From Granulibacter bethesdensis (lineage in GTDB: Bacteria > Pseudomonadota > Alphaproteobacteria > Acetobacterales > Acetobacteraceae), in NCBI RefSeq assembly GCF_001889545.1, contig NZ_CP018194.1:2057501-2121500 (forward strand): a stretch of DNA of 64,000 nt, written 5' to 3'. A model generated the notes under the pieces. That model worked only from the letters and a program-made list of their open reading frames with translations. It did not search any database and was not told the DNA's origin. Below, in pieces: positions 9,664 to 40,579 of this stretch. Position 1 is the first letter of the stretch, and each line of letters opens with the position of its first letter. The position numbers and the translations under genes were made by a program.

Positions 9664-9978
9664 CCGATAGGGTATCCGTCCAAAAACACGCGCGGCTGGC
9701 CTCTTTCTGTTATCAGGCAGGCAGGGTTATTGCGGGCACGATCACTCATTCCCGGATGCTTCTACACAGGCAGACTGCCGAAAGGGAGAGGAGAAGCATA
9801 GATGCGTTCATTCCGGCACCCAACCACCTGAGCGCTCATGAAGCAACCGCCCATGAGGACGTCGCGTTAAAAGAGACAACAGGCCCCGCAGGAAGGTCCT
9901 CCGCCTATGATCCCCAACGATCTCGTGCGGTATGATTTTTGTGCAGGGTCACGCATGACGCACCCAGGAGATAACCTT
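9664..9978. other. Divergent intergenic region, 315 bases
   Basis: Lies between the minus-strand binding-protein gene and the plus-strand DUF883 gene. A TATGAT box at 9931-9936 could be a -10 element for the plus-strand operon. A good ribosome-binding site near 9791 precedes a nine-codon frame starting at 9802, which I do not claim as a gene. Nothing else is recognisable. Confidence 0.4.
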
Positions 9979-17710: not shown

Positions 17711-19357
17711 TCAGACAGACAGCAGCCGCCCGACAATCACCGCCAGCACACCGCCCAGCAAAGCCAGATAAGGCAGCAGACCGGCACGGCTTTCCACGCC
17801 TTCCTCTTTCTCCATATGCAGATCCTTGATCGCCGCCTCGGGAAAGACGCCCTTATCCTGCACATAATGACGGAACAGGAAGACCGGGATAATCATCGCC
17901 GCAACGATGATACCGGTCAGCAAGGTTCCACTGCCCCATACATTGGCCCCCATCCCCATCAGGAAAGCGTTGACGAAACCCAGCACCGCCCCCGTGCCCA
18001 GCAGCCAGCCGGGGCATTTAAACGGACGGGCCAGAAGCGGACGATCAATCCGGTGCAGCCAGCCTGCATTGAGATTCATGAAGCTGAAAATGATATAGCC
18101 GACATTGGAAGCCGCCAGCACGAATACGTTATCGCTCAGCAGCAGCAACAGCATGTTGAAGCAGAGATCCGTCCACATCGCATGGGTCGGCGCACCATGA
18201 TGGTTCACGTGCGACAGATAGCGCGGCAGCCAGCCATCGACCGATCCCTGATACAGCGTGCGCGACGATCCGGCCATGGCCGTCATGATCGATAGCAGCA
18301 AAGTCAGCACAAGCATGACAACGATGATATTCAGCACCACTCCCTGCGCCCCGATCATCGCCGCCATGGCACGGCCAACCCCCATGCCACTGTAAATATC
18401 TGGTGCCAGCATGCCATCCAGCCCAAGAGCGCCCTGGAAAGCCAACGGAACCAGGGTGAACACCACCAGACAGAGCAGACCGGAAAAGAAAATCGCCTTG
18501 AACGTATCCGTGCTGGGATTACGGAATTCCCGCGTGTAGCAAACAGCGGTTTCAAACCCGTACGTGGACCAGGCCGCAATAAACAAGCCTCCCGCCATCA
18601 GCGAGAGACCGGCCATGTCCCAATGTCCGGCCACAACCTTGCCCGCCGCATCATGCGCCAGAGGCACAAAAGGCGTGAAATGGCTGGCCGGCATATCCCC
18701 GGTCAGCAGCGGTACCAGCCCGATGATCAACAACGGCAACAGGGACACCACCGCAAAAATCATCTGGATACGGGCAGAGGCCAGAATACCGCGATGCTGG
18801 ATAGCAAACACACACAGCATCAGCACAGCAGCAAGCCCAAAAGTGGCGTTGATCCGGATCGTCAGACCATCCTTGATCATCCCCAGATCAAACAGGGTCC
18901 ATTGCCAGCTGTTCACCACACTATCCGCCGGAAACAGTACGGACAGAATATAGCCAGCGCCCAGTGACGTGCCGATGGCCAGCACCGGCGACCATGCGAA
19001 CCAGTTACACCAGACCGAAAGCGGCGCGATCAGCTTGCTGTAGCGCACCCAGGCCACAGCACCATAAACGGATGCCCCACCTGATTTTTCCGGGAAAAGC
19101 CCGGCAATTTCCGCATAGGTGAAAGACTGCAGAAATCCGAACAGGATTGAAATAATCCAGATTGCCCAGGAAGGATTACCAACCGTCGCGGCAATCGAGC
19201 CGATCGTGAACAGAACCAGCGCAGGCACACCGCTGGAAACCCAGAACGCATCTACCCATGTCAGTGAACGGACCAGCTCATTACTGGTCTTTGTCACCGT
19301 CTCGCCTACTGCCTTACCGCCCGCAGGCAATGCGATATCCAAAGCACCTTCACTCAT
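17711..19357 (-). CDS. APC-family amino acid/amine permease
   Basis: 548-aa inner-membrane transporter with about 12-14 hydrophobic segments and the APC-superfamily start SSGVPALVLFTIGSIAATVG, AEIAGLFPEKSGGASVYGAVAWV and ETAVCYTREFRNP. The unwound first helix and the acidic residue in AEIAGLFP are typical. Substrate cannot be read. It ends the segment before the methylamine cluster and is transcribed in the same direction as the adjacent LuxR regulator, 177 bases downstream of it; amine uptake for the tmm/tdm pathway is a reasonable but unproven idea, because no TmoXVW-type ABC transporter is present nearby. Confidence 0.85.
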   Translation of the reverse strand: MSEGALDIALPAGGKAVGETVTKTSNELVRSLTWVDAFWVSSGVPALVLFTIGSIAATVGNPSWAIWIISILFGFLQSFTYAEIAGLFPEKSGGASVYGAVAWVRYSKLIAPLSVWCNWFAWSPVLAIGTSLGAGYILSVLFPADSVVNSWQWTLFDLGMIKDGLTIRINATFGLAAVLMLCVFAIQHRGILASARIQMIFAVVSLLPLLIIGLVPLLTGDMPASHFTPFVPLAHDAAGKVVAGHWDMAGLSLMAGGLFIAAWSTYGFETAVCYTREFRNPSTDTFKAIFFSGLLCLVVFTLVPLAFQGALGLDGMLAPDIYSGMGVGRAMAAMIGAQGVVLNIIVVMLVLTLLLSIMTAMAGSSRTLYQGSVDGWLPRYLSHVNHHGAPTHAMWTDLCFNMLLLLLSDNVFVLAASNVGYIIFSFMNLNAGWLHRIDRPLLARPFKCPGWLLGTGAVLGFVNAFLMGMGANVWGSGTLLTGIIVAAMIIPVFLFRHYVQDKGVFPEAAIKDLHMEKEEGVESRAGLLPYLALLGGVLAVIVGRLLSV

Positions 19358-26193: not shown

Positions 26194-27164
26194 CAGACAA
26201 CAAAAATACCCCTCGTCAAATAGACGTCAGGCTGTCTGACATAGAGCCACTTTCTCCCACTTTAAAACGCCTGACTTTTGTTCCGATAGGTACGGCTGCT
26301 TTTCCTGTCATCCCGACGGGCAGTCATGTCATTGTATCGATACCGGGCAGCAGACGGACTCATAAAAACGCTTACTCCCTGATCGGACCGGCAGACAAGA
26401 CAGATGCCTATCAGATTGTTGTTCGAAAAGTGGATAAAAGCCGTGGTGGTTCAAGCTGGATTCATGAACAGGCCAAAGTAGGCGACAGGCTCCAGATCAG
26501 TTGGCCATCCAGCCTGTTTCCCCTTTCCAACATAGCGTGTCATCACCTTCTGATCAGCGGCGGAATCGGGATTACCCCGATCCTGTCGCATCTGCATGCC
26601 CTGACTGCCCGTGGTGCATCGTTCAGCCTGCATCATGCCTGCAAAGCTGAAGACAGGGATGCCTTCCTGACCCTGCTGGCCCCTTTCCATGGTCACGACA
26701 TCACCCTTTACGTGGCCGACGATCCATCATCCTCCCGACTGGATCTTCAGGCTGTGATGGGCAGACAGCTTTTGGGCACCGTTCTTTACACATGCGGTCC
26801 GCAAAAACTGACGAATGCCATCATGGAGACAGGCCGTGCACTCGGCTGGCCTGCGTCAAGCCTTCAGACTGAGAGTTTCGGTGGAGCTCGGGCTGGTACA
26901 GCCTTTACCCTGCATGCACTCCGATCGGACAAAATCATTCTTGTCGATGAAGAGAGCAGCATTCTGGAGGCTCTGGAAGGGGCTGGTATCGAGCCAACCT
27001 ATCTCTGCCGTGGGGGAGCCTGTGGTCAGTGCCTGACCAGTGTCATTGATGGCATTCCAGAACATCGCGACGATTTTCTGGATGAGCAGGAACGTGCCAC
27101 AAACAAAAAAATCATGATCTGTGTTTCAAGGGCATGCAGTCCCTCTCTGACCCTTGATATTTGA
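26190..27164 (+). CDS. Dimethylamine monooxygenase reductase subunit, DmmB-like
   Basis: 324-aa phthalate-dioxygenase-reductase-type electron-transfer protein. Domain order: flavin-binding barrel (about 10-105, with KNAYSLIGPADKTDAYQIVV), NAD(P)H-binding fold (LLISGGIGITPILSHL and LYTCGPQKL), then a plant-type 2Fe-2S domain with CRGGACGQC and the fourth Cys in IMICVSRA. It would pass electrons from NAD(P)H to the heme oxygenase encoded next. Same-operon overlaps on both sides support a complex with its neighbours. Confidence 0.88.
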   Translation: MTDNKNTPRQIDVRLSDIEPLSPTLKRLTFVPIGTAAFPVIPTGSHVIVSIPGSRRTHKNAYSLIGPADKTDAYQIVVRKVDKSRGGSSWIHEQAKVGDRLQISWPSSLFPLSNIACHHLLISGGIGITPILSHLHALTARGASFSLHHACKAEDRDAFLTLLAPFHGHDITLYVADDPSSSRLDLQAVMGRQLLGTVLYTCGPQKLTNAIMETGRALGWPASSLQTESFGGARAGTAFTLHALRSDKIILVDEESSILEALEGAGIEPTYLCRGGACGQCLTSVIDGIPEHRDDFLDEQERATNKKIMICVSRACSPSLTLDI

Positions 27165-27193
27165 TCCACCTGCGAAAGAAGGGATTTCCTGTC

Positions 27194-28252
27194 ATGACCG
27201 TTCAGTTCAAGCCAGACGAAACATTCCGGGGTGATTACAACTTCAAAAACAGCGATGAGGCGATACTAAGCTTCCCATTTCCGTTTCCTGAAGATGAATA
27301 CATGTATTCGATGAATGCCGAACCACATGTCAAAGCCGGACCATCCCCATCCTATCACCATGCATTCGATATTGATGAGCATTACATCGCTGAATGCAGG
27401 GAACGCGCAATCATTCTTGAGCAAGACCCGAAACGCTGTCAGGTCATGCCGCATCTTCAGATTGCCGAATGGGATACGCTTGAACTCCTGATGGATTCTC
27501 TGTCTACCGACTACCCTCAATGGTTCAGCTTAACAAAAGACAGTGATAAATGGTGCTGGATCAATCGTCTGTTGGCGATTGAGCAGAACTTCATCTTTGG
27601 CGATACGTCTACGCTTCCTTTGCCGCCCTTCGAGTATATTACAAGACAGGTTCAAGGAGATTTTACCCTTCAGGATCAGCGGGAGAACAATCTGTTCATT
27701 GAAGGGGGAATGGTAACCTCACAGGCGGACTGGTCTCTCAATTTTGACAAGGGCATGAGCTTCCATGAATGGCATGCGCCTGTGCCATTAGCCCATGATA
27801 TGGGGGTCTTTGATCGAGCTCTCAAATTTCTGCTCAAGCTGCAATATGGGCAGCCTGTGCGCCGTCTGAACTGGACTTTGACTGTCAATCCACGTCTCGA
27901 TGTCTCACCGGAGAATTATGCGATCTGGGGTCCGGATCGCATGACGGTTACGCCTGACAATGTAAGACAGAAAGTGCATCTTCGTGTTGAGCTGCAAAGT
28001 CTGTTCCGCCTGCCACGCAGCAATGCTATTCTGTTTTCCATTCGAGGCTATCTGGCAAGTATAGAAGAAATTCAGCGCGTTCCCAAATGGCGGCGTCGAC
28101 TGCATCGTGTGATACGGGATTTAAACCCTTCGATCCGAACCTATAAGGGCTTCTCCCGCTACTACGATACAGTGGTTGCAGCTCTGGCGTCAGGAGATGA
28201 TGGATTACCGACATCGTCAGGCATTCAGCCTGATATTGACAGGCTTTCGTAA
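27194..28252 (+). CDS. Heme-dependent oxidative N-demethylase (DUF3445), dimethylamine oxygenase catalytic subunit
   Basis: 352-aa DUF3445/HODM family protein, the catalytic subunit of dimethylamine monooxygenase, which converts dimethylamine to methylamine plus formaldehyde. Family blocks include RAIILEQDPKRCQVMP, NLFIEGGMVTSQADWSLNFDKG, IHE-type SFHEWHAPVP and LNWTLTVNPRLDVSPENYAIWG, and RVELQSLFRLPRSNAILFSIRGYL. ATG 27194 with AAGGGA is preferred over TTG 27161. It ends the operon, followed by a strong terminator. No genes for methylamine use (gmaS, mgs, mgd) follow. Confidence 0.85.
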   Translation: MTVQFKPDETFRGDYNFKNSDEAILSFPFPFPEDEYMYSMNAEPHVKAGPSPSYHHAFDIDEHYIAECRERAIILEQDPKRCQVMPHLQIAEWDTLELLMDSLSTDYPQWFSLTKDSDKWCWINRLLAIEQNFIFGDTSTLPLPPFEYITRQVQGDFTLQDQRENNLFIEGGMVTSQADWSLNFDKGMSFHEWHAPVPLAHDMGVFDRALKFLLKLQYGQPVRRLNWTLTVNPRLDVSPENYAIWGPDRMTVTPDNVRQKVHLRVELQSLFRLPRSNAILFSIRGYLASIEEIQRVPKWRRRLHRVIRDLNPSIRTYKGFSRYYDTVVAALASGDDGLPTSSGIQPDIDRLS

Positions 28253-28646: not shown

Positions 28647-29879
28647 TTACAGATCCTGCGCAATCGGCATATCCACCAGACCAGGTGTTACACCACCACT
28701 TGGACCATCAGCACCCGGATTGATATCAAAATCAAAAATTTCGGTGGGTACCCAGAGCGTTGCACAGGAATTGGGAATATCGACCACTCCGCTGATATGC
28801 CCCTGCACCGGCGCGGTGCCCAGAATTGAATATCCCTGTGCACCGGAATATCCAAATTTCTTCAGATATTCTATGGCATTAAGGCATGCCTGACGATAAG
28901 CAACATTGACATCGAGGTAATGCTGCTCACCTTGTTCATCGACCGAAATACCCTCAAATATCAGATAGTCGTTGTAAACAGGCTTGATAGGGCTTGGTTT
29001 GAAGATCGGATTTTTGATTCCGTATTTTGCCATCCCGTCCTTGATCAGATTCACACGCATATGAATCCATCCGGGCATCTCGATAGCGCCGCAGAAGGTA
29101 ATTTCACCATCGCCCTGGCTGAAGTGAAGATCACCCACGGACAAACCTGCCCCCGGAACGTAGACCGGGAAGAAAACCCGAGCTCCTCGGGACAGATCCT
29201 TGATGTCGCAATTACCACCATGTTCACGCGGAGGAACAGTGCGGGCACCATTGGCCGCAGCGGCATCGCGCGCCTCACCTTTTAAGCGTCCCATATGGGC
29301 TGTCGGCTCAAAAGGCGGATTGGCCAGAGGTGGCACACGGGTCGGGTTGGTCGCGATCAGCGCTTTCTCGCGCGCATTCCATTTTTCCAGCAGATCGGGA
29401 GATGGCAGACAGCCGATCAGACCAGGATGAATCAGGCCTGCATAATTCACGCCTGGAACATGGCGGGAAGAGGCAAACATACCATGAAAATCCCAGATTG
29501 ATTTCTGAGCTAATGGAAAATGATCAGTCAGAAAGCCGCCGCCATTTTTTTTGGAGAAAAACCCGTTAAAGCCCCACGCATTATGCGGGAATGCACCGAT
29601 ATCCAGAAAATCGACCACCAGAAGGTCACCCGGCTGCGCCCCCTCGACACCGATCGGGCCACTGAGATAATGCACAGTTGTCAGATCGACATCCCGGACA
29701 TCCTCGGCTGAGTCATCGTTTTTAATGAATCCACCCGTCCAGTCATAGCATTCGACGATAAAATCATCTCCTGGCTTGACTGTGGCGACCATTGGAATGT
29801 CATGATGCCACCGATTATGCACCATATCATTGCTGATAGCCGGTTGTGACAGGTCGATTTTAATGATCGTGTCAGTCAT
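28647..29879 (-). CDS. fmdA: Formamidase FmdA (acetamidase/formamidase family)
   Basis: 410-aa cytoplasmic enzyme hydrolysing formamide to formate and ammonia. It follows FmdA of Methylophilus closely: IKIDLSQPAISNDMVHNRWH, GDFIVECYDWTGG, LSGPIGVEGAQPGDLLVVDFLDIG, GFFSKKNGGGFLTDHFP, HGGNCDIKDLSRGA and GDLHFSQGDGEITFCGAIE, which contain the expected metal/active-site residues. It follows the five transporter genes on the same strand with a 44-base gap to urtE, so imported amides are met by their hydrolase. Confidence 0.95.
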   Translation of the reverse strand: MTDTIIKIDLSQPAISNDMVHNRWHHDIPMVATVKPGDDFIVECYDWTGGFIKNDDSAEDVRDVDLTTVHYLSGPIGVEGAQPGDLLVVDFLDIGAFPHNAWGFNGFFSKKNGGGFLTDHFPLAQKSIWDFHGMFASSRHVPGVNYAGLIHPGLIGCLPSPDLLEKWNAREKALIATNPTRVPPLANPPFEPTAHMGRLKGEARDAAAANGARTVPPREHGGNCDIKDLSRGARVFFPVYVPGAGLSVGDLHFSQGDGEITFCGAIEMPGWIHMRVNLIKDGMAKYGIKNPIFKPSPIKPVYNDYLIFEGISVDEQGEQHYLDVNVAYRQACLNAIEYLKKFGYSGAQGYSILGTAPVQGHISGVVDIPNSCATLWVPTEIFDFDINPGADGPSGGVTPGLVDMPIAQDL

Positions 29880-29923: not shown

Positions 29924-30613
29924 CTATACAGCCAGGAAGCGGCCGACTTTTTCCTGATCCAGATTATCCTTTGTATCCTGATGAACAATCTTGCCGCCTT
30001 CGATTACCATGATCCGATCGGCCACATCCAGTGCAAAGGACAGAACCTGTTCAGAGACAAAAATTGAAAGCCCTTTCTGGTCACGTATTCTACGCAGTGT
30101 TCTGGCCATTTCCAGAATAATGGAAGGCTGGATACCTTCGGTCGGTTCATCCAGAAGCAGAACCTTCGGCTCAGTTGCCAGAGCACGGGCAATGGCAAGC
30201 TGTTGCTGCTGGCCTCCAGAAAGGTTGCCGCCGCGACGACGGCCCATTTCTTTCAGAACAGGGAAAAGTTCATATAAATCCGACGGTATTTTGGATTTTC
30301 CCCTGACAAAAAGACCTGTTTCAATGTTTTCTGTCACAGTCATCGTCGAAAAAATCATACGCCCCTGGGGAACATAAGCAATCCCGGTTTTGACACGCCG
30401 ATGGCTTTTCATCGTCGTAATATCAGCACCATCCAGCATGATCTGACCACCGCTGCCGGGAACCATCCCGATCAGCGATTTCATCAGTGTCGATTTTCCC
30501 ATCCCATTGCGACCGACAATGGCCACAATTTCTCCGGCACCAATATCAAGATCAATCCCGTGCAGAACTTCGCTCTGGCCATATGACACGCGCAATTCAT
30601 GTGTGGTCAGCAT
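29924..30613 (-). CDS. urtE: Urea/short-chain amide ABC transporter ATPase UrtE
   Basis: 229-aa LivF-type ATPase of the urea/amide importer. Walker A VGRNGMGKSTLMKSL (about 31-45), signature LSGGQQQQLAIARAL, Walker B VLLLDEPTEGIQP and a truncated switch region with SEQVLSF, where Gln takes the place of the usual His, as normal in UrtE/LivF. ATG 30613 with GAGGAG is preferred to the ATG at 30628 that overlaps urtD. Part of the urtABCDE-fmdAB operon. Confidence 0.92.
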   Translation of the reverse strand: MLTTHELRVSYGQSEVLHGIDLDIGAGEIVAIVGRNGMGKSTLMKSLIGMVPGSGGQIMLDGADITTMKSHRRVKTGIAYVPQGRMIFSTMTVTENIETGLFVRGKSKIPSDLYELFPVLKEMGRRRGGNLSGGQQQQLAIARALATEPKVLLLDEPTEGIQPSIILEMARTLRRIRDQKGLSIFVSEQVLSFALDVADRIMVIEGGKIVHQDTKDNLDQEKVGRFLAV

Positions 30614-30624
30614 AGCGTGTCTCC

Positions 30625-31371
30625 TCAATGTCCCAGATAGACTTCAATGACTTTTGGGTCATTCTTCACATGCGCCATGGTTCCGTCTGACAGAACCTGT
30701 CCCTGATGAAGAACCGTTACTTTATGGGCAATGTCCTCCACAAAACCCATATCATGCTCGATAACCAGCACAGAGCGACCTTCAATGATCCTGTGCAGAA
30801 GCTCAGCGGTTTTCTGTCGCTCGGCCACGCTCATGCCTGCAACCGGCTCATCAAGCATGAGAAGCTCAGGATCCTGAATCAGCAGCATTCCTATTTCCAG
30901 CCATTGCTTCTGACCATGGCTTAGATATTCGGCCCGTTCATGCAGACGATCCTGAAGGAAAATCATCTCGCTGATTTCTTCAATTCTGGAATGCACTTCA
31001 GCATCACAGCGGAAGCTTAATGCCCCGAACACAGATCGGCCACGCGGATAGGAAATCTCAAGATTCTCAAAAACCGTGAGATCCTCATAAATCGATGGAT
31101 TCTGGAATTTGCGTCCTACTCCGGCACGAACAATCTGATGCTCCTTCATGGTGGTCAGTTCATGATTACGGAATCTTATCGACCCTGAGGATGCTTTTGT
31201 TCGTCCACAGATGAGGTCAAGAACTGTAGTTTTTCCTGCTCCATTGGGACCAATAATCACACGGATTTCATTGCGATCAACGTAGAAGGACAGATCATTA
31301 ACGGCCTTGAAACCATCAAATGAAACGGTCAATCCCTCAACCGCCAGAAGAAAATCTGTTTCTGATGACAT
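30625..31371 (-). CDS. urtD: Urea/short-chain amide ABC transporter ATPase UrtD
   Basis: 248-aa LivG-type ATPase pairing with UrtE. Walker A IGPNGAGKTTVLDLI, the UrtD/LivG block GRKFQNPSIYEDLTVFENLEIS, signature YLSHGQKQWLEIGMLL (LSHGQ instead of LSGGQ, as usual for UrtD), Walker B LLMLDEPVAGMS and switch His VIEHDMGFV. The next gene follows with a start close to its stop. The operon order A-B-C-D-E is the standard one. Confidence 0.93.
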   Translation of the reverse strand: MSSETDFLLAVEGLTVSFDGFKAVNDLSFYVDRNEIRVIIGPNGAGKTTVLDLICGRTKASSGSIRFRNHELTTMKEHQIVRAGVGRKFQNPSIYEDLTVFENLEISYPRGRSVFGALSFRCDAEVHSRIEEISEMIFLQDRLHERAEYLSHGQKQWLEIGMLLIQDPELLMLDEPVAGMSVAERQKTAELLHRIIEGRSVLVIEHDMGFVEDIAHKVTVLHQGQVLSDGTMAHVKNDPKVIEVYLGH

Positions 31372-31385
31372 GACAGCTTTCTCCC

Positions 31386-32531
31386 TTACTTCACAACCGC
31401 AGGCGTATCGGTCGAAGAAAGTGCTTCTTTTGCCGCGCTATTCTGTCTGTTACCCATGCCGAGCAGGCGGCTGACATACGGATCGAGATAGCTGCGATAC
31501 AATCCGGCCAGACCGTTGGGGAACACCATTGTCACAATGATGAACAATGCACCCATTGCAAACAGCCAGGCATTGGGGAACGCTTCTGACAGGCTGGACC
31601 GGGCCCAATTCACCAGCAAGGTTCCATACAGCGCACCCAGCAGAGATGTACGCCCACCCACAGCCGCGAAAATCACCATTTCGATAGAAGGAACGATCCC
31701 GACAAAGCTCGGTGACATGAAGCCGACCTGCAGGGTGAACATTGCGCCACCCACCCCGGCCAGAGCCGCTGCAACACAGAAGGCAAAAATCTTGAAACTC
31801 GCAACGTCATACCCCGAGAAGCGTACCCGATCCTCCCGATCCCGCATTGCCAACAAAATACGGCCAAGCTTTGATCGCCGGATAAACTGAAGCAGAATCA
31901 GACTGCCCAGAAGCAGGCCGCAGCAGACGAAATACAGCACGTTTCTGGCATGATCCGTGCGAATATCCCAACCATGAAAGCTGCGCAGATCGGTGATTCC
32001 ATTGACACCACCGGTATAACCCTGCTGGCCAATGATCAGAATGGTCAGTATGGCGGCAATGGCTTGCGTGATGATGGCGAAATATGTGCCGCCTACTCGC
32101 CGCCGGAACATGGCGACTGCGATCACCAGCGCCAGCACCATTGGCACCGCAGGGACTGCAAAAATGGTAAAGGCAAGGCTGTGAAACGGCTTCCAGAACC
32201 ATGGCAGGGACGTAATCTGGTTCCAGTCCATGAAATCAGGAATACCTGGTGTAGACTGGATTTTGGTTGCTTCCGGCGTCGATGATTCCAGCTTCAGATA
32301 CATGGCCATGCAGTAGCCACCGAGACCAAAAAATACGCCCTGACCAAGACTGAGAATACCTGCATCACCCCAGCAGAGCACCAGACCGAGCGCCACGAAA
32401 CCATAGGTCAGATACTTGCCGAACAGGTTCAGTCGAAAGGTATCTAGGCAAAGCGGAAAGACAACAAGGATCAGCAGGGCAAACAGGCCGATACACAGAA
32501 TATCTTTGCGATTGAGGAAACTGCTGTTCAT
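31386..32531 (-). CDS. urtC: Urea/short-chain amide ABC transporter permease UrtC
   Basis: 381-aa LivM-type membrane subunit with about ten hydrophobic segments. UrtC hallmarks: WGDAGILSLGQGVFFGLGGYCMAMYLKLE near the N-terminus, GGTYFAIITQAIAAILTILIIGQQGYTGGVNGITDL in the middle, and VGGRTSLLGALYGTLLVNWARSSLSEAFP near the C-terminus. It lies 14 bases from both neighbours urtB and urtD on the same strand. Confidence 0.93.
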   Translation of the reverse strand: MNSSFLNRKDILCIGLFALLILVVFPLCLDTFRLNLFGKYLTYGFVALGLVLCWGDAGILSLGQGVFFGLGGYCMAMYLKLESSTPEATKIQSTPGIPDFMDWNQITSLPWFWKPFHSLAFTIFAVPAVPMVLALVIAVAMFRRRVGGTYFAIITQAIAAILTILIIGQQGYTGGVNGITDLRSFHGWDIRTDHARNVLYFVCCGLLLGSLILLQFIRRSKLGRILLAMRDREDRVRFSGYDVASFKIFAFCVAAALAGVGGAMFTLQVGFMSPSFVGIVPSIEMVIFAAVGGRTSLLGALYGTLLVNWARSSLSEAFPNAWLFAMGALFIIVTMVFPNGLAGLYRSYLDPYVSRLLGMGNRQNSAAKEALSSTDTPAVVK

Positions 32532-32545
32532 GTGAAATATGCTCC

Positions 32546-33472
32546 TCAGCGCCGAACCTTGAGAACAAACAGACCCTGCGGACGGATCATCAGAATGATG
32601 ATGACCGACAGCAGCACGATCACCTGCGCCATTGAGCCACTGAGGAAGAATTCCAGCGTGGACCGCGCCTGGGAGATCGTGAATGCGGAGGCAATCGTAC
32701 CGAGCAGGCTCGATGCACCGCCAAAAACCACGACAAGGAATGTATCGACGATATAAAGCTGACCGGCTGTCGGGCTGGTGGACCCGATCATGGTGAACGC
32801 GGCCCCGGCCACACCCGCGATGCCACAGCCGAGGCCGAAGGTCAGACGATCGACTTTTTCCGTGTCGATCCCGACCGCCGCCGCCATCGGACGGTTCTGC
32901 ACCACGGCCCGCACCTGCTTACCCCAGCCAGAGCGGAACATCAGCAGATAGACCCCGACCGTGATCAATGTGGTCAGCCCCATCACCAGCAAACCGTTAA
33001 TGGGGATCTCGATGCTTTCAGACAGATGGGTTGCCCCCATCATCCATTCCGGCAGATTGACGCCGACTTCACGCGCACCGAAAACCGAACGATAGATCTG
33101 CTGCATGATCAGGCTGAGGCCCCATGTCGCCAACAGACTGTCAAGCGGTCTTTTGTAGAGATGGCGTATCATCAGCCATTCCACAAGCATCCCGGCAAGG
33201 CCGGAGGCACAGAAAGCCAGGACGACAGCAATAGGAAAGTAGATTGCAAACGCCCCTGGGATAAACTGAGAAAAAAGCTCCGACGTCAGATAGGTTACAT
33301 AAGCACCAAGGATCATGAACTCCCCGTGCGCCATATTGATGACGCCCATCTGGCCAAAAATAATGGCCATGCCGAGCGCCATCAGCACAAAGACAGAGAA
33401 CAGGATAAGCCCGGAAAATCCCTGCATGACAAAGATAGAACCGAGTTCACTTATCGAGTAGCCACCCATCAA
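32546..33472 (-). CDS. urtB: Urea/short-chain amide ABC transporter permease UrtB
   Basis: 308-aa LivH-type membrane subunit with eight or nine hydrophobic segments; it shows ALGMAIIFGQMGVINMAHGEFMILGAY, MLVEWLMIRHLYKRPLDSLLATWGLSL and GLGCGIAGVAGAAFTMIGSTSPTAGQLYIVDTFLVVVFGG, all typical of UrtB. It has the short form without the N-terminal extracytoplasmic extension seen in many proteobacterial UrtB proteins. It lies 38 bases after urtA. Confidence 0.92.
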   Translation of the reverse strand: MMGGYSISELGSIFVMQGFSGLILFSVFVLMALGMAIIFGQMGVINMAHGEFMILGAYVTYLTSELFSQFIPGAFAIYFPIAVVLAFCASGLAGMLVEWLMIRHLYKRPLDSLLATWGLSLIMQQIYRSVFGAREVGVNLPEWMMGATHLSESIEIPINGLLVMGLTTLITVGVYLLMFRSGWGKQVRAVVQNRPMAAAVGIDTEKVDRLTFGLGCGIAGVAGAAFTMIGSTSPTAGQLYIVDTFLVVVFGGASSLLGTIASAFTISQARSTLEFFLSGSMAQVIVLLSVIIILMIRPQGLFVLKVRR

Positions 33473-33510: not shown

Positions 33511-34794
33511 TCACTGATATCCTTTGGGGAACGGATCGGGCTTGATCAGCTCCGGTGTTTCCCACACCACCTTGAACTGTCCGTCCAGTTGGGCCTGCCC
33601 GACCCGTGTACGGCTCCAAAGATGATGATTGGGATCAATCTTGACGTAACCTTCGGGCGCGGTTTTCAACTCAAGACCGGGCGAGGCCGCAACGACCTTG
33701 TCCACATCGAAACTGCCTGCTTTTTCGCAGGCCATTTTCCACAGGAATGGCCCAAGATAGGCGGCCTGCGTCACGTCACCGATCACGCTTTTCGGTCCAT
33801 AGGCTTCCTTGAAAGCGGCAACGAATTTCTCGTTGTTGGGGTTCTTCAGGGACTGGAAATACTTCATGCAGGAATAGGCCCCGGCGATATTTTCGCCGCC
33901 AATGCCGAGCACTTCGTCTTCCGTTACCGAAATGGTCAGCACAGTCTGCTTGTTCAGATCAATGCCAGCCGCTTTCAGCTGCTTGTAGAATGCGACATTG
34001 GACCCGCCGACCACGGCAGCATAGATGACATCCGGCTTTTTCAGGCGGAATTTGTTGATCACAGAATTGAACTGGGTGTGACCAAGCGGAAAATAATCCT
34101 CGCCCACCACCTTACAGCCGGACAGGTGATTTTCGATGTGTTTGCGCGCAATTTTCATCGATGTACGCGGCCAGATGTAATCGGAGCCAATAAGGTAGAA
34201 GGTTTTTGCTCCCTTCACCTTGTTAACCCAGTCCAGCCCGGCCAGAATCTGCTGTGTTGCTTCCTGCCCGGTGTAAAAAACATTCTTGGACTGCTCCAGG
34301 CCTTCATAGAAGGTGGGGTAATACAGCAACCCGTTATACTGTTCGAACACTGGCAGCACCGCCTTGCGGGAGGCAGATGTCCAGCAGCCGAAAACTGCGG
34401 CGCACTTGTCGTTCACCAGCAGCTTACGGGCTTTTTCAGCAAAAGTCGGCCAGTCACTGGCACCGTCCTCCTGAATATACTTGATCTGCCGGCCCAGCAC
34501 GCCACCCGCCGCGTTGATCTGGGAAATGGCGAGTTTCTCCGCCTCGATGGAGCCGGTTTCGCTGAGCGCCATGGTGCCGGTGGAGGAATGCAGAATGCCC
34601 ACTGTCACCGCATCATCGGTCACAGCCAGACCGGTCTTGTCGATCGCGGCGGTGGCGGGCTTGCCATCCGCCCATGACGTGCCGGGCAGCATGGCAGCGG
34701 CCGGCAACGCGGCCATGCCCTGCAACAGGCGGCGACGCAAGCCGGAACGGGGAGCGCCCATATCGGAGGGGTCAAAGGGAGAATGATCGGCCAT
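33511..34794 (-). CDS. urtA: Urea/short-chain amide-binding periplasmic protein (UrtA/FmdD type), probable Tat substrate
   Basis: 427-aa binding protein feeding UrtBCDE. Core motifs SSTGTMALSETGSIEAEKLAISQINAAGG, IQEDGASDWPTFAEKARKLL, FGCWTSASRKAVLPVFEQYNGLLYYP and KFRLKKPDVIYAAVVGGSNVAFYKQ identify the urea/amide clade; the adjacent formamidase and amidase genes favour amides as substrates (the Methylophilus FmdD role). The signal GLRRRLLQGMAALPAAAMLPGTSWA looks twin-arginine-like. ATG 34794 with AGGA is preferred to longer starts. First gene of its operon, divergent from the kinase gene. Confidence 0.92.
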   Translation of the reverse strand: MADHSPFDPSDMGAPRSGLRRRLLQGMAALPAAAMLPGTSWADGKPATAAIDKTGLAVTDDAVTVGILHSSTGTMALSETGSIEAEKLAISQINAAGGVLGRQIKYIQEDGASDWPTFAEKARKLLVNDKCAAVFGCWTSASRKAVLPVFEQYNGLLYYPTFYEGLEQSKNVFYTGQEATQQILAGLDWVNKVKGAKTFYLIGSDYIWPRTSMKIARKHIENHLSGCKVVGEDYFPLGHTQFNSVINKFRLKKPDVIYAAVVGGSNVAFYKQLKAAGIDLNKQTVLTISVTEDEVLGIGGENIAGAYSCMKYFQSLKNPNNEKFVAAFKEAYGPKSVIGDVTQAAYLGPFLWKMACEKAGSFDVDKVVAASPGLELKTAPEGYVKIDPNHHLWSRTRVGQAQLDGQFKVVWETPELIKPDPFPKGYQ

Positions 34795-34877: not shown

Positions 34878-34895
34878 ATACGTCATATGACGTAT
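34878..34895. promoter_or_regulatory. 18-bp perfect palindrome between urtA and the sensor kinase gene
   Basis: ATACGTCATATGACGTAT is its own reverse complement over 18 bases. It lies 83 bases upstream of urtA and 115 upstream of the kinase start I prefer. This is a strong operator candidate for the LuxR-type response regulator at 38514. A similar half site (ATAACGTAT, 39479-39487) lies upstream of amiE. Confidence 0.6.
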
Positions 34896-35010
34896 GGCAG
34901 TGCAAAGGGGATCAAAGGGACACTTCCCCGCCATAAAGGGGCCATACGGTGGCGAAAATGGGAAAAGGTCAGGCGAAAAAACCGGGCCGGTATGGCATGC
35001 TGCCTCCGAC

Positions 35011-38000
35011 ATGACACAAAGACCGCTCCCTGAATCGCCGGAAGGCAGCCCCTGGATTTCCCGCCAGCGGATTGTCCGCATCCGCCGGGATTATAATCGC
35101 TGGGTCGCCGATGAAACGCTGGAAGATTATGCGCTGCGCTTTACAGCAAGGCGCGCCCGGCGCTGGAGCGGCCTGCGCATTGCCAATACCGCGCTCAGTG
35201 CTATCTCCTTCCTCGCCCTGGAGGCCATTGGCGGCACGATCACGGTCGGATACGGCTTCACCAATGCCGTCAGCGCCATTTTCGCGGTCGGCCTGCTGAT
35301 TTTCCTGGCCGGACTGCCAATCAGCCTGCAGGCAGCCCGGGCCGGGGTCGATATCGATCTGCTCACCCGTGGCGCAGGGTTCGGCTATATCGGCTCCACC
35401 ATCACCTCGCTGATCTATGCCAGTTTTACCTTCCTGTTCTTTGCACTGGAAAGCGTCATTCTGGCCTCGATGCTGAAAATCTGCTTCGGCATTCCGCTGT
35501 ATGCGGCCTATCTGATCTGCTCCGTCATCGTGATCCCGGTGGTGGCACGCGGTATTTCCGCCATCAACCGGGTCCAGCTCTGGACACAGCCTTTATGGCT
35601 GTTACTGCATTGTCCCCCTTTCATCGCCATTGCGCTCAACGGCCGCGACATTCTGGGTCTCTGGAGTGGTTTTGAGGGAATTTCACCGCTCTCCCACATG
35701 GCCAACGGCACAGGATTTGACTGGCTGAGCTTTGGTGCCGCGGCCTCAATTATCATGTCCCTGATTACGCAGATCGGAGAACAAGTCGATTATCTGCGCT
35801 TTATCCCGGCAGAGACACGCGAACAGCACAGGCTGCGCTGGACGCTGACGGTGCTGGCAGGCGGGGCCGGATGGATTTTCCCCGGCATGCTGAAAATGCT
35901 GGCGGGGTCATTTCTGGCGGTGTTCGCCATCCATGCCGGCATTCCCGCCATGGAAGCCATTCAGCCAGCCTGGATGTACCGGATCGCTTTCGGCTCGCTG
36001 GGCCTGCATCCGGCAGCCGCACTGTTTCTGGCGGCGCTGTTCGTGTTCATCTCCCAGTTCAAGATCAACGTGACCAATGCCTATGCAGGCTCCATCGCAT
36101 GGTCGAATTTCTTTTCCCGCCTGACCCATGCTCATCCGGGACGGGTGGTATGGCTGATCTTCAACATTGCCATTGCGCTGGCATTGATGGAGCTGGGTGT
36201 ATTTCAGGCCATCGAAGCCACGCTGCATAATTACTCCAGCATCGCCGCCGCCTGGATGGGGGCTCTGGTTTCCGATCTGACGATCAACCGGGCATTGGGA
36301 CTGGCTCCTCGACAGATCGAGTTCAAACGCGCCCATCTGCCGGACGTTAATCCGGTCGGAGTTGGCGCCATGCTGACTGCCATTACAGTTTCTCTCTGCG
36401 CTCAGGCCGGGTGGTTCGGCGTGGCGGCTGGGGTGTTCTCACCCTTTCTCGGCTTTGCAACCGCGTTTGTGACAGCGCCTGTGATCGCATGGGCAACAGG
36501 AGGTAAAACCTATCTGGCGCGCAAGGCCCGACGGAGCTGGGCGCATCTCCAAAGCCTGCATTGCGTGGTCTGCGAAAATGACTTTGAACCGGAGGATTCG
36601 GCCTATTGCCCCGCTTATGGCGGCGCGATCTGTTCGTTGTGCTGCTCCCTCGACGCACGCTGCGATGATCTCTGCAAGAAACCGGAGACAAGGCTGTCAG
36701 TGCAGTGGCACCGCATCCAACAATGGCTTACCCCCACCCGCCTGCAACCTGTGCTGGACAGTCTGGGAGGACGCTACTGCATTGTCTTTGCGATGCTGGG
36801 AGGCAGCACCGGCCTGATGCTGCTGGGGATTTATCACCAGACTGTTTCCGGCGCGACCCGGACGGACCCCCTGTTACGCAGTGCTTTCTGGCAGGCATGG
36901 TGCGTCATGCTGTTGATTTCCGGCATTGCCGCGTGGCTGCTGGTTCTGGCGCTTCAAAGCCGGCGCGTCGCACGGGAGGAAAGCCGCCGTCAGACCGCAC
37001 TGCTGATGAACGAGATCCGCGCCCATCGCCGCACCGACGCCAAGCTGCAGAAAGCAAAGGAAGCTGCGGAATCCGCCAACCTCGCCAAAAGCCGTTTCGT
37101 CGTCGGGGCCAGTCATGAACTGCGTTCCCCCCTGAATGCGATTCTCGGCTATGCGCAGTTGATGGATGGGGATGAAACCCTGCCCCCCAAATGGAAGCGC
37201 GCCATCGGCATCATGCGCCGCAGCGGAGAACATCTGGCCGGTCTGATCGAGGGATTACTGGATATCTCGAAAATCGAGGCCGGACGGATCGATGTGGCCC
37301 GCGATGCCGTCAGGCTCGGTGATTTTCTGGACCAGATTGTCAGCATGTTCCGCATTCAGGCGGAAGCGAAAGGCATCGACTTCATCTTCGACCGCCCGGA
37401 AACACTGCCCGCCCAGGTCTATACCGATGAACGCAGATTGCGGCAGATTCTGATCAATCTGCTGTCCAATGCAATCAAGTTCACGCGCTATGGACGGGTC
37501 ACATTCCGTGTGCGGTGGCGCAGCCAGATTGCCGATCTCGACATTACCGATACCGGAATCGGCATTGACGGGCAGGAACTGGAACGGATTTTCGAGCCGT
37601 TCCACCGCACATCCGGAGCCCTGCATGCCAGCATGCCCGGAATCGGGCTGGGGCTGACGATTACCAAACTGCTGGTGCAGATTCTGGGCGGCGACATCAC
37701 CGTGCAGTCAAAGCTGGGCGAAGGCAGTACGTTCCGCATCCGCCTGATGCTTTCCGAAGTGCGGCAGAGTACGGAACCGGCGCTGGAGGCGCCTCAATCC
37801 ACATCCACCGCGCTTGCCTCAACGCTACGTGCGGGCCTGACGGCGATCATCACCGATGATGACCCGGTTCATCGTGATATGATGAGCGATATTCTGGCAC
37901 CGCTGGGAATCACCGCGATGCATGCTGTCAACGGTCAGGCCTGTCTTGATCTGGCCGAAGAGCAAAGGCGCGCCGGCAATGTGATTGCCCTGTTCCTGCT

Positions 38001-38517
38001 TGACATCCAGATGCCTGGCCTGAATGGATGGGAAGTCGCCCGTTATTTGCGTGAAGCGGGTTTCAGTGAAGCAACCATTCTGATCATCTCCGCCAATTCT
38101 GGCGCCATCAGCGGCGGCAGCATGGCTGGTGATCATCATGACGGTCTGCTGAGCAAGCCGGTCGATATCAGCCTGCTGTATGCGTTTCTGCATCAACGCC
38201 TGAAACTGCAAACAAAAACGCCGCTCATAACCCAGCCATTACCGGTGATTCCTCCTCCTGCCCAGCCGCAGGATCAGGGTCTGACCACACTGGATACCAA
38301 ACAGCGTGAGGAATTGCGCCAGCTTCTCACCATCGGATACATGCGCGGCCTGCGCGACAAAATGGAGGATATCGCCACGACCCACCCGGATACCCGCACC
38401 GACATCGACCGGCTGCGTCATCTGGCGGATCAGTTCGATCTCAGCGGCCTGTCAGCCCTGCTGGATCATGCCCCGGCAGGATCGTCCCCTCTTCTTTCAG
38501 ACAGCAACGCTCCATGA
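35011..38517 (+). CDS. NCS1 permease-histidine kinase-receiver fusion (putative transporter-sensor)
   Basis: About 1168 aa. Residues 1-500 resemble an NCS1 (cytosine/allantoin) permease with about 12 membrane segments, e.g. GGTITVGYGFTNAVSAIFAVG and FGYIGSTITSLIYASFTFLF. Residues 517-556 hold eight cysteines (CVVC, YCP, CSLCC, RC, LCK), probably a metal-binding link. Two more hydrophobic segments precede a kinase core: HisKA with His702 in GASHELRSPLNAILG, N box NLLSNAIKF, DTGIGI and GIGLGLTITK. A receiver domain follows with Asp998 in FLLDIQMPG, then a helical tail. The start is uncertain: an upstream ATG at 34894 lies in the palindrome. It probably senses an amide or related nitrogen compound. 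The stop overlaps the regulator start. Confidence 0.88.
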   Translation: MTQRPLPESPEGSPWISRQRIVRIRRDYNRWVADETLEDYALRFTARRARRWSGLRIANTALSAISFLALEAIGGTITVGYGFTNAVSAIFAVGLLIFLAGLPISLQAARAGVDIDLLTRGAGFGYIGSTITSLIYASFTFLFFALESVILASMLKICFGIPLYAAYLICSVIVIPVVARGISAINRVQLWTQPLWLLLHCPPFIAIALNGRDILGLWSGFEGISPLSHMANGTGFDWLSFGAAASIIMSLITQIGEQVDYLRFIPAETREQHRLRWTLTVLAGGAGWIFPGMLKMLAGSFLAVFAIHAGIPAMEAIQPAWMYRIAFGSLGLHPAAALFLAALFVFISQFKINVTNAYAGSIAWSNFFSRLTHAHPGRVVWLIFNIAIALALMELGVFQAIEATLHNYSSIAAAWMGALVSDLTINRALGLAPRQIEFKRAHLPDVNPVGVGAMLTAITVSLCAQAGWFGVAAGVFSPFLGFATAFVTAPVIAWATGGKTYLARKARRSWAHLQSLHCVVCENDFEPEDSAYCPAYGGAICSLCCSLDARCDDLCKKPETRLSVQWHRIQQWLTPTRLQPVLDSLGGRYCIVFAMLGGSTGLMLLGIYHQTVSGATRTDPLLRSAFWQAWCVMLLISGIAAWLLVLALQSRRVAREESRRQTALLMNEIRAHRRTDAKLQKAKEAAESANLAKSRFVVGASHELRSPLNAILGYAQLMDGDETLPPKWKRAIGIMRRSGEHLAGLIEGLLDISKIEAGRIDVARDAVRLGDFLDQIVSMFRIQAEAKGIDFIFDRPETLPAQVYTDERRLRQILINLLSNAIKFTRYGRVTFRVRWRSQIADLDITDTGIGIDGQELERIFEPFHRTSGALHASMPGIGLGLTITKLLVQILGGDITVQSKLGEGSTFRIRLMLSEVRQSTEPALEAPQSTSTALASTLRAGLTAIITDDDPVHRDMMSDILAPLGITAMHAVNGQACLDLAEEQRRAGNVIALFLLDIQMPGLNGWEVARYLREAGFSEATILIISANSGAISGGSMAGDHHDGLLSKPVDISLLYAFLHQRLKLQTKTPLITQPLPVIPPPAQPQDQGLTTLDTKQREELRQLLTIGYMRGLRDKMEDIATTHPDTRTDIDRLRHLADQFDLSGLSALLDHAPAGSSPLLSDSNAP

Positions 38518-39434
38518 CACCACGCGACATCGTCCTGCTGGTCGATGATACACCAGGCAGTCTCTCAGTCCTGCATGATGCGCTGGATATGGCCGGCTAT
38601 ACCGTTCTGGTTGCACAATCCGGTCAGGCTGCCCTGACGCTGATGGAACAGGTCACACCCGATATCATTCTGCTGGATGCCGTCATGCCGGGCCTGGATG
38701 GGTTTGAAACCTGCCGCCGCCTGAAACAGCATCCAACCCATGCCATCATCCCCGTGATTTTCATGACCGGGCTGACCGATACCAAACATGTGGTGCAGGC
38801 TCTGCAATGCGGCGGGGTAGATTATGTAACCAAACCTGTCTCACCGGAACAGGTGCTGGCCCGCATTACCGTACATCTCGGCAATGCCCGTCTGATGCAG
38901 AGTGCCCATGTCGCACTTGATCGTGCCGGGCGCTATCTGTTTGCCGTCGATGCCAGCGGACATATTGCATGGAGCACCCCACAGGCGGCTCTTCTGCTGG
39001 GTGCTTCGGATGGCAGGCCGGTCCTGCCTGCGTTTCTGCTGCCCTGGATCACCGAATGCGCCAGCGGCGAAGCGATGACCGGCAGCCGCCGGGTTGTTGC
39101 GGAAAACCGGCTTTCTCCTGAAGGCACCGGATCGCGGGAGGTAGAGATCGTATTCTTCGGCACTTCCCGCGATGACGAGATCCTGATGCGTCTGATCATC
39201 AACGATCCAGCCGAGGAGCAGACCATCCTGCGTCAGCGTCTGCCCGTAACCGCACGGGAGGCTGAAGTTCTGCTATGGATCGGTCGGGGCAAGCAGAACC
39301 GCGACATTGCCGACATTCTGGGCCTGAGTCCGCGCACCGTGAACAAGCATCTGGAACAGATCTACACCAAGATCGGGGTCGAAAACCGGGCCGCAGCCGC
39401 AGCCGTTGTCATGAAATTGCTGGCCTCCCGCTGA
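38514..39434 (+). CDS. LuxR-type response regulator coupled to the permease-kinase
   Basis: 306 aa. Receiver domain 1-120 with acidic pair VDD (about 10-12), phospho-acceptor Asp55 in IILLDAVMPGLDG and Lys in DYVTKPVSP; a PAS-like middle part (LFAVDASGHIAWSTPQAALLLG); and a C-terminal LuxR helix-turn-helix (LPVTAREAEVLLWIGRGKQNRDIADILGLSPRTVNKHLEQIYTKIG). The ATGA overlap with the kinase gene supports a cognate pair. Its targets are probably urtABCDE-fmdAB and amiE, which flank it. Confidence 0.9.
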   Translation: MTPRDIVLLVDDTPGSLSVLHDALDMAGYTVLVAQSGQAALTLMEQVTPDIILLDAVMPGLDGFETCRRLKQHPTHAIIPVIFMTGLTDTKHVVQALQCGGVDYVTKPVSPEQVLARITVHLGNARLMQSAHVALDRAGRYLFAVDASGHIAWSTPQAALLLGASDGRPVLPAFLLPWITECASGEAMTGSRRVVAENRLSPEGTGSREVEIVFFGTSRDDEILMRLIINDPAEEQTILRQRLPVTAREAEVLLWIGRGKQNRDIADILGLSPRTVNKHLEQIYTKIGVENRAAAAAVVMKLLASR

Positions 39435-39547: not shown

Positions 39548-40579
39548 ATGATGCATGGTGATATTTCCAGCTCTGCCGATACGGTTGGCGTCGCTGTCGT
39601 CAATTACAAAATGCCGCGCCTGCATACGATCGAGGACGTGCACCGCAATGCCCATACCATTGCCGAGATGATCATCGGCATGAAAGCCGGCCTGCCGGGG
39701 ATGGATCTGGTGATTTTCCCGGAATACAGTACCCACGGCATCATGTATGATGAGGCCGAAATGATGGAAACTGCTGTTTCCATCCCCGGACCGGAGACCG
39801 ATATTCTGGCCGATGCCTGCCGCCGGGCCAAGGTGTGGGGCGTGTTCTCCCTGACCGGCGAGCGGCATGAACAGCATCCGGAAAAACGGCCCTACAACAC
39901 CCTGATCCTGATCGACGATACCGGAAAAATCGTTCAGAAATACCGCAAGATCATTCCATGGACACCGATCGAAGGCTGGTATCCTGGCGATCAGACCTAC
40001 GTGTCTGAGGGTCCGAAAGGGATGAAGATCAGCCTCATCATCTGCGATGACGGCAATTATCCTGAAATCTGGCGTGACTGCGCCATGCGTGGGGCAGAGC
40101 TGATCGTACGCTGTCAGGGCTATATGTATCCCGCGAAAGAACAGCAGATATTGATGGCTAAAGCGATGGCATGGGCCAATAACGTCTATGTGGCCGTGGC
40201 CAATGCGGCTGGATTTGACGGGGTCTATTCCTATTTCGGCCATTCCGCGATCATCGGTTTCGACGGACGCACCCTGGGTGAATGCGGGACGGAGGAAAAC
40301 GGCATCCAGTATGCCCAGCTCTCCAAAGCTCTGATCCGCGACGCCCGCAGGAACGGGCAGTCGCAGAACCATCTCTACAAGCTGCTGCACCGCGGCTATA
40401 CCGGCACCATTGCTTCCCGAGAAAATAGCAGCGGCAAGGCGGAATGCCCCTATTCCTTCTACCGTGACTGGATCACCGATCCTGAAGGCACCCGCGCCAA
40501 AGTCGAGGCCCTGACCCGCAGTGAACCCGGTGTTGCTGATTGCCCGGTTGCCGGTGTGCCGACACCGACAGGTTCATAA
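39548..40579 (+). CDS. amiE: Aliphatic amidase AmiE (nitrilase superfamily)
   Basis: 343-aa acylamide amidohydrolase producing ammonia and a short carboxylic acid, e.g. from acetamide or propionamide. The sequence follows Pseudomonas AmiE nearly residue for residue at the N-terminus ([21 protein letters not shown]), and the catalytic triad keeps the same numbering: Glu59 (FPEYS), Lys134 (KYRKIIPW), Cys166 ([10 protein letters not shown]). It lies downstream of the sensor pair; FmdA, in the other operon, is an unrelated fold acting on overlapping substrates. ATG 39548 or 39551 could be used. No terminator-like hairpin with T-run follows. Confidence 0.96.

Follow-up and report, generated by a model that had tools for sequence, protein, structure and literature searches.

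The locus in Granulibacter bethesdensis

The DNA analysed here, referred to as the window, is a stretch of 64,000 nucleotides from Granulibacter bethesdensis (contig NZ_CP018194.1, positions 2,057,501 to 2,121,500), and this account concerns one gene within it, PermHK, together with the regulator gene and the operator-like palindrome beside it. PermHK (35011..38517, + strand) encodes a protein of 1168 aa in which, based on its open reading frame (ORF), Pfam, alignment, and profile comparison, an NCS1-like permease is fused to a cysteine module, a hairpin of two transmembrane (TM) segments, a histidine kinase, and a receiver. The longest ORF over the gene runs from 34894 to 38517; the start at 35011 is preferred, because most homologues begin up to ~17 residues after it and because a start at 34894 would overlap the palindrome. 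As an initial annotation of this DNA had stated, PermHK overlaps the gene of a LuxR response regulator. The overlap is of 4 bases, and the regulator (38514..39434, + strand), which is of the LuxR/NarL type, has Response_reg and GerE domains in Pfam and asparagine at residue 277 (N277), the position of its helix-turn-helix (HTH) that is correlated with the operator sequence.

The pair lies between a urea/amide importer operon and an amidase gene, as had also been described. On one side, all on the − strand, are the formamidase gene fmdA (28647..29879; NF045496, PF03069), urtE (29924..30628; TIGR03410), urtD (30625..31371; TIGR03411), urtC (31386..32531; TIGR03408), urtB (32546..33472; TIGR03409), and urtA (33511..34794; TIGR03407), the start of urtA having been chosen by eye at MADHS in an ORF that reaches 34905 at its longest. 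On the other side is the aliphatic amidase gene amiE (39548..40579, + strand; NF009802). The spacer between the divergent urtA and PermHK genes holds TACGTCATATGACGTA (34879..34894), a 16-bp palindrome of the form TACG-N8-CGTA that is upstream of both genes, its centre being ~93 bp from the urtA start codon and ~125 bp from PermHK.

The kinase and receiver are complete, and the phospho-site numbers first assigned to them hold when residues are counted from 35011. HisKA with His702 (37084..37284, PF00512), HATPase_c (37423..37752, PF02518), and a receiver domain with Asp998 (37846..38184, PF00072), all on the + strand, score above the Pfam cut-offs, and both His702 (of the sequence SHELR) and Asp998 are invariant in 59 aligned fused proteins. 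With HisKA, HATPase, and receiver domains and their phospho-sites, PermHK is a hybrid histidine kinase. No alignment column with more than 30 % histidine was found in residues 1060-1168 of the fused proteins, so that there is no Hpt domain in PermHK itself, the only protein in which one was looked for. Given the lack of a conserved histidine after the receiver, direct phosphorylation of the regulator would be expected.

Between permease and kinase, residues 518-555 (36562..36675, + strand) form the cysteine-rich module, with the eight cysteines originally counted there (C518, C521, C533, C541, C544, C545, C551, and C555). In 98 fused proteins, some of them near-copies, all eight are kept save for one gap at C551. 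The alignment suggests that the module probably binds zinc, and it is expected to be located in the cytoplasm. A Pfam search gave a weak Prok-RING_1 match (E 1.6) to the module in one of 42 members, and a profile search of the PDB returned the kinase parts plus two weak zinc-type chains. The module is followed by two segments that are hydrophobic by alignment-mean hydropathy (residues 588-606 and 626-644; 36772..36942, + strand). This two-helix hairpin before the kinase was absent from the initial description.

Distribution, gene neighbourhood, and operator

An even sample of 398 genomes from across the phylum gave 55 with the cysteine module; after three weak cases (E >1e-3) were dropped, 52 remained, including the genome of the window. 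This is a lower bound, because the first pass scores a limited number of candidates per genome. There were 57 strong places, of which 56 were fetched (the window being excluded) as the phylum set. A second set is made up of 51 loci of named genomes, which from their names we take to span alpha-, beta-, and gammaproteobacteria; some genomes are common to both sets. The fusion is no assembly artefact, since it is held by all 56 phylum loci and 50 of the 51 named-genome loci match from the permease past residue 1029, the exception (L067) being a contig-end piece. The receiver is missing in four members (L226, L227, L253, and L254), and a further one (L225) is cut at a contig end. Three of the four (L226, L227, and L253) form a clade of receiver-less permease-kinases, and L226 and L227 are near a formamidase-like gene of ~70 % identity.

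In the phylum set, the regulator is within 1 kb of PermHK in 54 of the 56 loci. The urtA gene is in view in 45 (upstream and on the opposite strand in 42), any urt gene in 48, fmdA in 37, and amiE in 18. Homologues thus do occur near urea and amide genes, with a urt gene or fmdA within ~12 kb in 50 of the 56 loci, and the association originally drawn from the window extends to the family. Two of the remaining six loci (L213 and L225) are truncated where their contigs stop, and the other four (L197, L198, L200, and L204) are from one family (f65). The system is also carried by plasmids: 342 of 533 plasmid records matching the permease and cysteine part come from Klebsiella. On one such plasmid (L258; NZ_CP065168.1, 59734-87066) a formamidase-urtEDCBA cluster is divergent from the fusion, a regulator ORF is after the fusion, and a palindrome is in the spacer. 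In public plasmid records the names given to the fusion gene include 'ATP-binding protein' and 'hybrid sensor histidine kinase/response regulator'.

The palindrome recurs at these loci. After one locus per set had been dropped for short sequence, 30 of the 55 phylum loci and 43 of the 50 named loci had TACGN8CGTA in the 450 bp before PermHK, compared with means of 0.1 and 0.03 loci, respectively, in 30 dinucleotide shuffles of the same regions. In an unprejudiced scan of 3840 spaced four-base palindromes it ranks first in both sets, several of the next ranks being other registers of the same site. A weight matrix was built from 30 distinct sites. Applied to the same loci on which it was trained, it detects a site next to at least one of urtA, fmdA, and PermHK in 41 of 56 in the phylum set and 46 of 51 in the named set, and it detects none in 274 control regions upstream of urtC, urtD, or urtE.

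Where urtA is apart from PermHK, the site tends to stay with urtA. Fifteen loci were flagged as split in this way; four of them (L023, L026, L049, and L068) were removed, because over-long ORFs had caused the flag and the real gaps are 136-307 bp. In eight of the 11 that remain, the site is at urtA only. Twelve loci have a second copy of the operator close to the start of fmdA (8 of 37 phylum and 4 of 22 named loci with fmdA), and in two loci (L242 and L243) there is a copy where the regulator gene ends, immediately ahead of a stand-alone permease gene.

Operator matches also follow the fusion across whole genomes. The permease was matched in 12 of 60 relatives, one of them (G015) having the stand-alone form only. 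When up to one mismatch is allowed, six of the 12 contain the operator pattern and none of the other 48 do. Six of the nine matching places are at the locus and the other three are at a second site in the genus of the window; a reversed control pattern matches in 11 places in the 60 genomes. For 38 hand-picked carriers (27 from the phylum sample and 11 from family genomes), 30 have a match, in 35 places altogether, 32 of them inside the locus; the reversed control pattern matches in nine. The off-locus matches (G101 C1337, G303 at 4639971, and G071 C15) adjoin no gene recognised by the reference proteins and were taken as chance.

Changes in the operator are associated with changes in the regulator. 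Residue 277 is at a position that presumably contacts bases in NarL. Among 67 of 91 regulator rows, being those with a site in the searched region, regulators with Asn277 (49 loci) have TACGT in 91 of 98 half-sites, while those with Asp, Thr, or Lys at this position (18 loci) have TACGC in 30 of 36 (Fisher's exact test on distinct sites, P=3.5e-6, ignoring relatedness). This co-variation argues that the regulator partnered with PermHK reads the TACG-N8-CGTA site.

In the genus of the window, each of three genomes has exactly two copies of the operator, all exact. The second copy in the window's genome is inside a 26-base palindrome (9861-9886 of L237, identified by eye), 126 bp ahead of the reading frame for an OprB-family porin (L237, 8295-9740, − strand), the neighbouring gene having been read in one of the three genomes. 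A formamidase, importer, and porin system for short amides and urea, fmdCABDEF, induced by formamide and urea, is reported from Methylophilus methylotrophus (PMC10781810); the parallel between its porin and an OprB porin in the putative regulon is suggestive only.

The sequences show the architecture and its conservation, the gene neighbourhood, the operator, its position, and its co-variation with residue 277, and the reading proposed from them, with a probability of about 0.7, is that PermHK is a transporter-derived sensor kinase for urea and short amides which, through its regulator, controls genes for their uptake and hydrolysis. Several observations weigh against this. No matrix site is present in 15 of 56 phylum loci and 5 of 51 named loci, and among the 11 split loci the site is at PermHK only in one and absent from two. 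Eight of the 38 carriers have no match to the TACGTCA-type pattern, in a sample from which most genomes with TACGC-type sites were left out. Among the 18 Asp/Thr/Lys277 loci, five do not have TACGC in both half-sites, and L192 and L211, which carry N277, do have it in both, in a comparison uncorrected for relatedness. No sigma-70-like promoter was found near the operator of the window, and the Pfam family of the porin is named carbohydrate-selective. Finally, the f65 loci form a paralogue group with neither urt nor fmdA in view and no operator, the regulators of which have the HTH variant Lys277. Some members of the family may therefore control something else, and the regulon of this group probably differs.

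The permease body and its stand-alone paralogues

The permease body (residues 1-500; 35011..36510, + strand) had been called NCS1-type, and profile comparison agrees, identifying it as a divergent NCS1 member that no Pfam model detects. A profile of 42 homologues (A1) aligned by hhalign with an NCS1 profile gave 97.3 % probability and E 2.3e-11 over 425 columns with 16 % identity, this E-value being from a single comparison and so not equal to that of a database search. Against the other families, the probabilities were 0.7 % for SSF and 0.1 % for both APC and NCS2. The comparison profiles were made from proteins of related genomes (12 NCS1, 14 SSF, 15 APC, and 14 NCS2). Tested one by one, 10 of 56 sampled homologues match the NCS1 hidden Markov model (HMM), with E-values up to 1e-3, and none match those of SSF, APC, or NCS2. 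PF02133 is not matched by the permease body, either alone or in the 42 homologues (25 of 26 Pfam families viewed), nor was a match to it found in the organism's own genome, and single-sequence searches of Pfam and the PDB with the permease body gave no match. The SSSF/STAC arrangement seen in CbrA, which was suspected at first, was rejected on the profile comparison; because the same method shows no link from NCS1 itself to SSF, APC, or NCS2, it is unable to judge kinship at the level of the fold.

The NCS1 profile retrieves Mhp1 (2jln) from the PDB at E 1.7e-51, and the cytosine permease 7qoa, with homology of these transporters, Mhp1 and CodB, over nearly the whole permease body of PermHK. 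PermHK differs from them in its 16 % identity, in the blindness of PF02133 to it, and in its fused kinase. In the alignment with Mhp1, which at this identity may be off by one residue, N318 is kept as N356, while Q121 is E147, W117 is F143, and S312 is K351. We take the Mhp1 residues to be contacts for substrate or sodium, S312 presumably being a sodium ligand. Since N356 aligns with N318, the body does not lack all of the NCS1 substrate residues, a lack that was to have told against the original proposal. Throughout the 114 aligned members E147, E257, Q258, D260, N353, and N356 are invariant, and K351 is replaced, by R, in one.

The structurally known NCS1 relatives are named as hydantoin and cytosine permeases, and the acidic core residues E71, E147, and E257 would suit a cation, as would be expected if the permease body sensed hydantoin, allantoin, a nucleobase, or guanidine and the urea and amide genes were only a downstream route. 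This is unlikely, however, as stand-alone paralogues of the body are near urease and amidase genes and no hydantoinase, allantoinase, or nucleobase enzyme was recognised beside family members, where most flanking genes are unannotated. Creatininase-family pieces are present farther downstream on plasmid L258.

These paralogues were found with a permease-only profile (A4). In 249 family genomes it gave 11 stand-alone genes, with reading frames of 534-621 aa; pieces that were shorter, matched more weakly, or were at the edge of a contig were left out of the count. A twelfth is on a Methylovirgula plasmid (L259). In 11 of the 12 loci they are near urease, formamidase, or amidase genes, and one is beside nothing recognised. 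Seven are in, or at most 4 kb from, a urease cluster, two (L242 and L243) are with fmdA and PermHK and have urease ORFs farther away, and the one on the Methylovirgula plasmid is with fmdA, PermHK, and amiE. Another (L244) is beside an amiE homologue split into two adjacent ORF pieces (8684-9844, − strand), each ~78 % like the AmiE of the window.

There is no urtA-D match in view in L242 and L243, and plasmid L259 has no listed urt gene in a gene table that is incomplete; it is as if the stand-alone permease replaces the Urt importer in these three. The fusion and regulator are nonetheless present in all three, which makes it improbable that what the kinase senses is Urt importer activity, or the general nitrogen state, with its permease body as a docking surface. 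Such coupling is reported for DctA/DcuS and BceAB-S (PMC11109136), and urt importer genes are in view in most phylum loci (48/56), as that explanation would have it. A urea and short-amide sensor in its own right remains the preferred reading of PermHK.

The stand-alone permeases end in the same cysteine module. Four keep all eight cysteines, while eight keep only C518, C521, C541, and C544, a division into four plus four that would be consistent with two metal sites, of which one may be treble-clef-like. This division bears on the possibility that the true input is sensed by the module, as zinc, a redox change, or nitric oxide, with the permease body serving as a membrane anchor. The near-complete conservation of the eight cysteines across the 98 fused proteins would accord with an input of this kind, but the permease core is equally conserved, and a module that also ends permeases without a kinase, and is reduced to four cysteines in 8 of 12, fits a structural zinc knuckle that goes with the permease. 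Sensing by the cysteines is accordingly given a low likelihood, and binding of urea or an amide by the permease body is preferred.

In a tree, the stand-alones are one clade (support 99/97) and the receiver-bearing sensors group at 88/94, with the branch order open. The two forms are separated by marker residues in TM1, where E71 is present in 97 of 98 sensors (with one gap), mostly with L70, and D70 with Q or F71 in all 12 stand-alones. Further differences in TM1 and TM8 are F67 in sensors versus Y67 in stand-alones and A359 versus S359. The four receiver-less kinases carry the sensor-type residues. The shift of the acid between positions 70 and 71 may represent a switch between carrier and receptor.

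It had been suggested that PermHK transports and senses the same nitrogen compound. The sensing part of this is upheld by the neighbourhood (50/56) and the operator; the transport part is not, as the stand-alone paralogues are likelier transporters and TM1 differs. A true transceptor, in which the fused protein carries its substrate inward while signalling, is thus doubtful, if a less remote prospect than the alternatives above. It would explain why the core (E147, E257, Q258, D260, N353, N356, and K351, with one R) is common to fusion and stand-alone permeases, and CbrA is reported to have both transport and kinase activities (PMC7096432, PMC13022988). The sensors nevertheless depart from the stand-alones at TM1 and TM8, and the urt genes at 48 of the 56 loci, with the three loci that have both a fusion and a stand-alone copy, suggest a division of labour. 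The sensor derived from a transporter is therefore retained as the preferred reading.

Proposed mechanism and relation to known systems

For the ligand, the drive of the kinase by its binding, the binding of the palindrome by the regulator, and activation as the sign of control, we infer the following course. Urea or a short-chain amide (formamide or acetamide), admitted through porins, would bind the NCS1-like body, and the conformational change would reach the kinase by way of the cytoplasmic zinc-type cysteine module and the two-helix hairpin. Next, the kinase would phosphorylate the LuxR-type regulator, a dimer of which would bind the TACG-N8-CGTA palindrome and control the urtABCDE promoter. 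The same regulator may also control fmdA in some species, the OprB porin gene in the genus of the window, and, in some species, the stand-alone paralogue of the permease. Given that the targets serve uptake and breakdown and that the operator is ~93 bp before urtA, activation there is favoured over repression.

More tentatively, and with rather less confidence than the sensor role itself, the data may point to a family, so far unrecognised, of receptors and permeases that have the NCS1 fold and handle urea and short amides. Within it, the widespread sensor kinase derived from a transporter would form one branch, and permeases mostly linked to urease, with the same zinc-type module at their ends, would form a related one, with the acid shift at TM1 positions 70 and 71 marking carrier versus receptor.

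The closest known systems are the SLC5/STAC histidine kinases CbrA, CrbS, and RpuS, in which a transporter body is likewise fused to a kinase paired with a regulator of nutrient genes (PMC13022988, PMC9100948, PMC5715377, PMC7096432). CbrA had been cited from the start as a precedent, and this holds for a fusion of transporter and kinase; the body of CbrA is of the SSSF/SLC5 type, whereas that of PermHK is NCS1. The linker seems to differ too, that of the CbrA type being a reported STAC four-helix bundle and that of PermHK the eight-cysteine module and 2-TM hairpin, for which no Pfam match was found, although whether Pfam includes a STAC model was not checked. Judged from its sequence, PermHK appears to work like CbrA yet stands outside the SLC5/STAC family.

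A nitrogen-nutrient transporter domain is likewise fused to a kinase as its sensor in the Amt-histidine kinase of Candidatus Kuenenia (PMC5764959), which differs in having an Amt domain and ammonium as its nutrient, the comparison being by description only. GrtK of Burkholderia glumae, an ammonia-sensing kinase, was considered as a relative and set aside, its membrane part being described as PilS-like. In Ectopseudomonas guguanensis, a urtABCDE operon is reported beside 'LuxR family' two-component genes, with 'HK' and 'rcsC' in the figure legend (PMC13296017); this co-location is annotation only, and the passages concerned give no permease body, operator, or function (PMC13296017). No account of an NCS1-kinase fusion, its function, or the TACG-N8-CGTA operator was among the matches listed from the open-access literature.

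If the proposal is correct, it identifies how many proteobacteria sense urea and short amides, with genes on both chromosomes and plasmids and with an operator and a regulon that are open to test, and it extends the short list of known fusions between transporter and kinase by one of NCS1 type. The carrier and the receptor are paralogues told apart by clean marker residues, which would give a direct route to asking how a transporter becomes a receptor. It would also provide a candidate urea permease for those members of the window's family in which the urease cluster includes a stand-alone gene.

Three further genes were recorded. A distant relative of the stand-alone permeases (L252, 9284-10939, + strand; E 3e-49), without the cysteine module, is before ORFs distantly like AmiE (24 %) and UrtA (30 %), and a further ORF at this locus resembles an ANTAR regulator by appearance. 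In the window, an amino-acid permease gene (PF13520, E 2.3e-70) is at 17939-19264 (− strand; coordinates converted from those of the genome). Next to fmdA, an ORF at 27161-28252 (+ strand) is like the alpha subunit of haem-dependent oxidative N-demethylase (PF11927, E 1.8e-69), and is possibly part of the supply of nitrogen from amines and amides.

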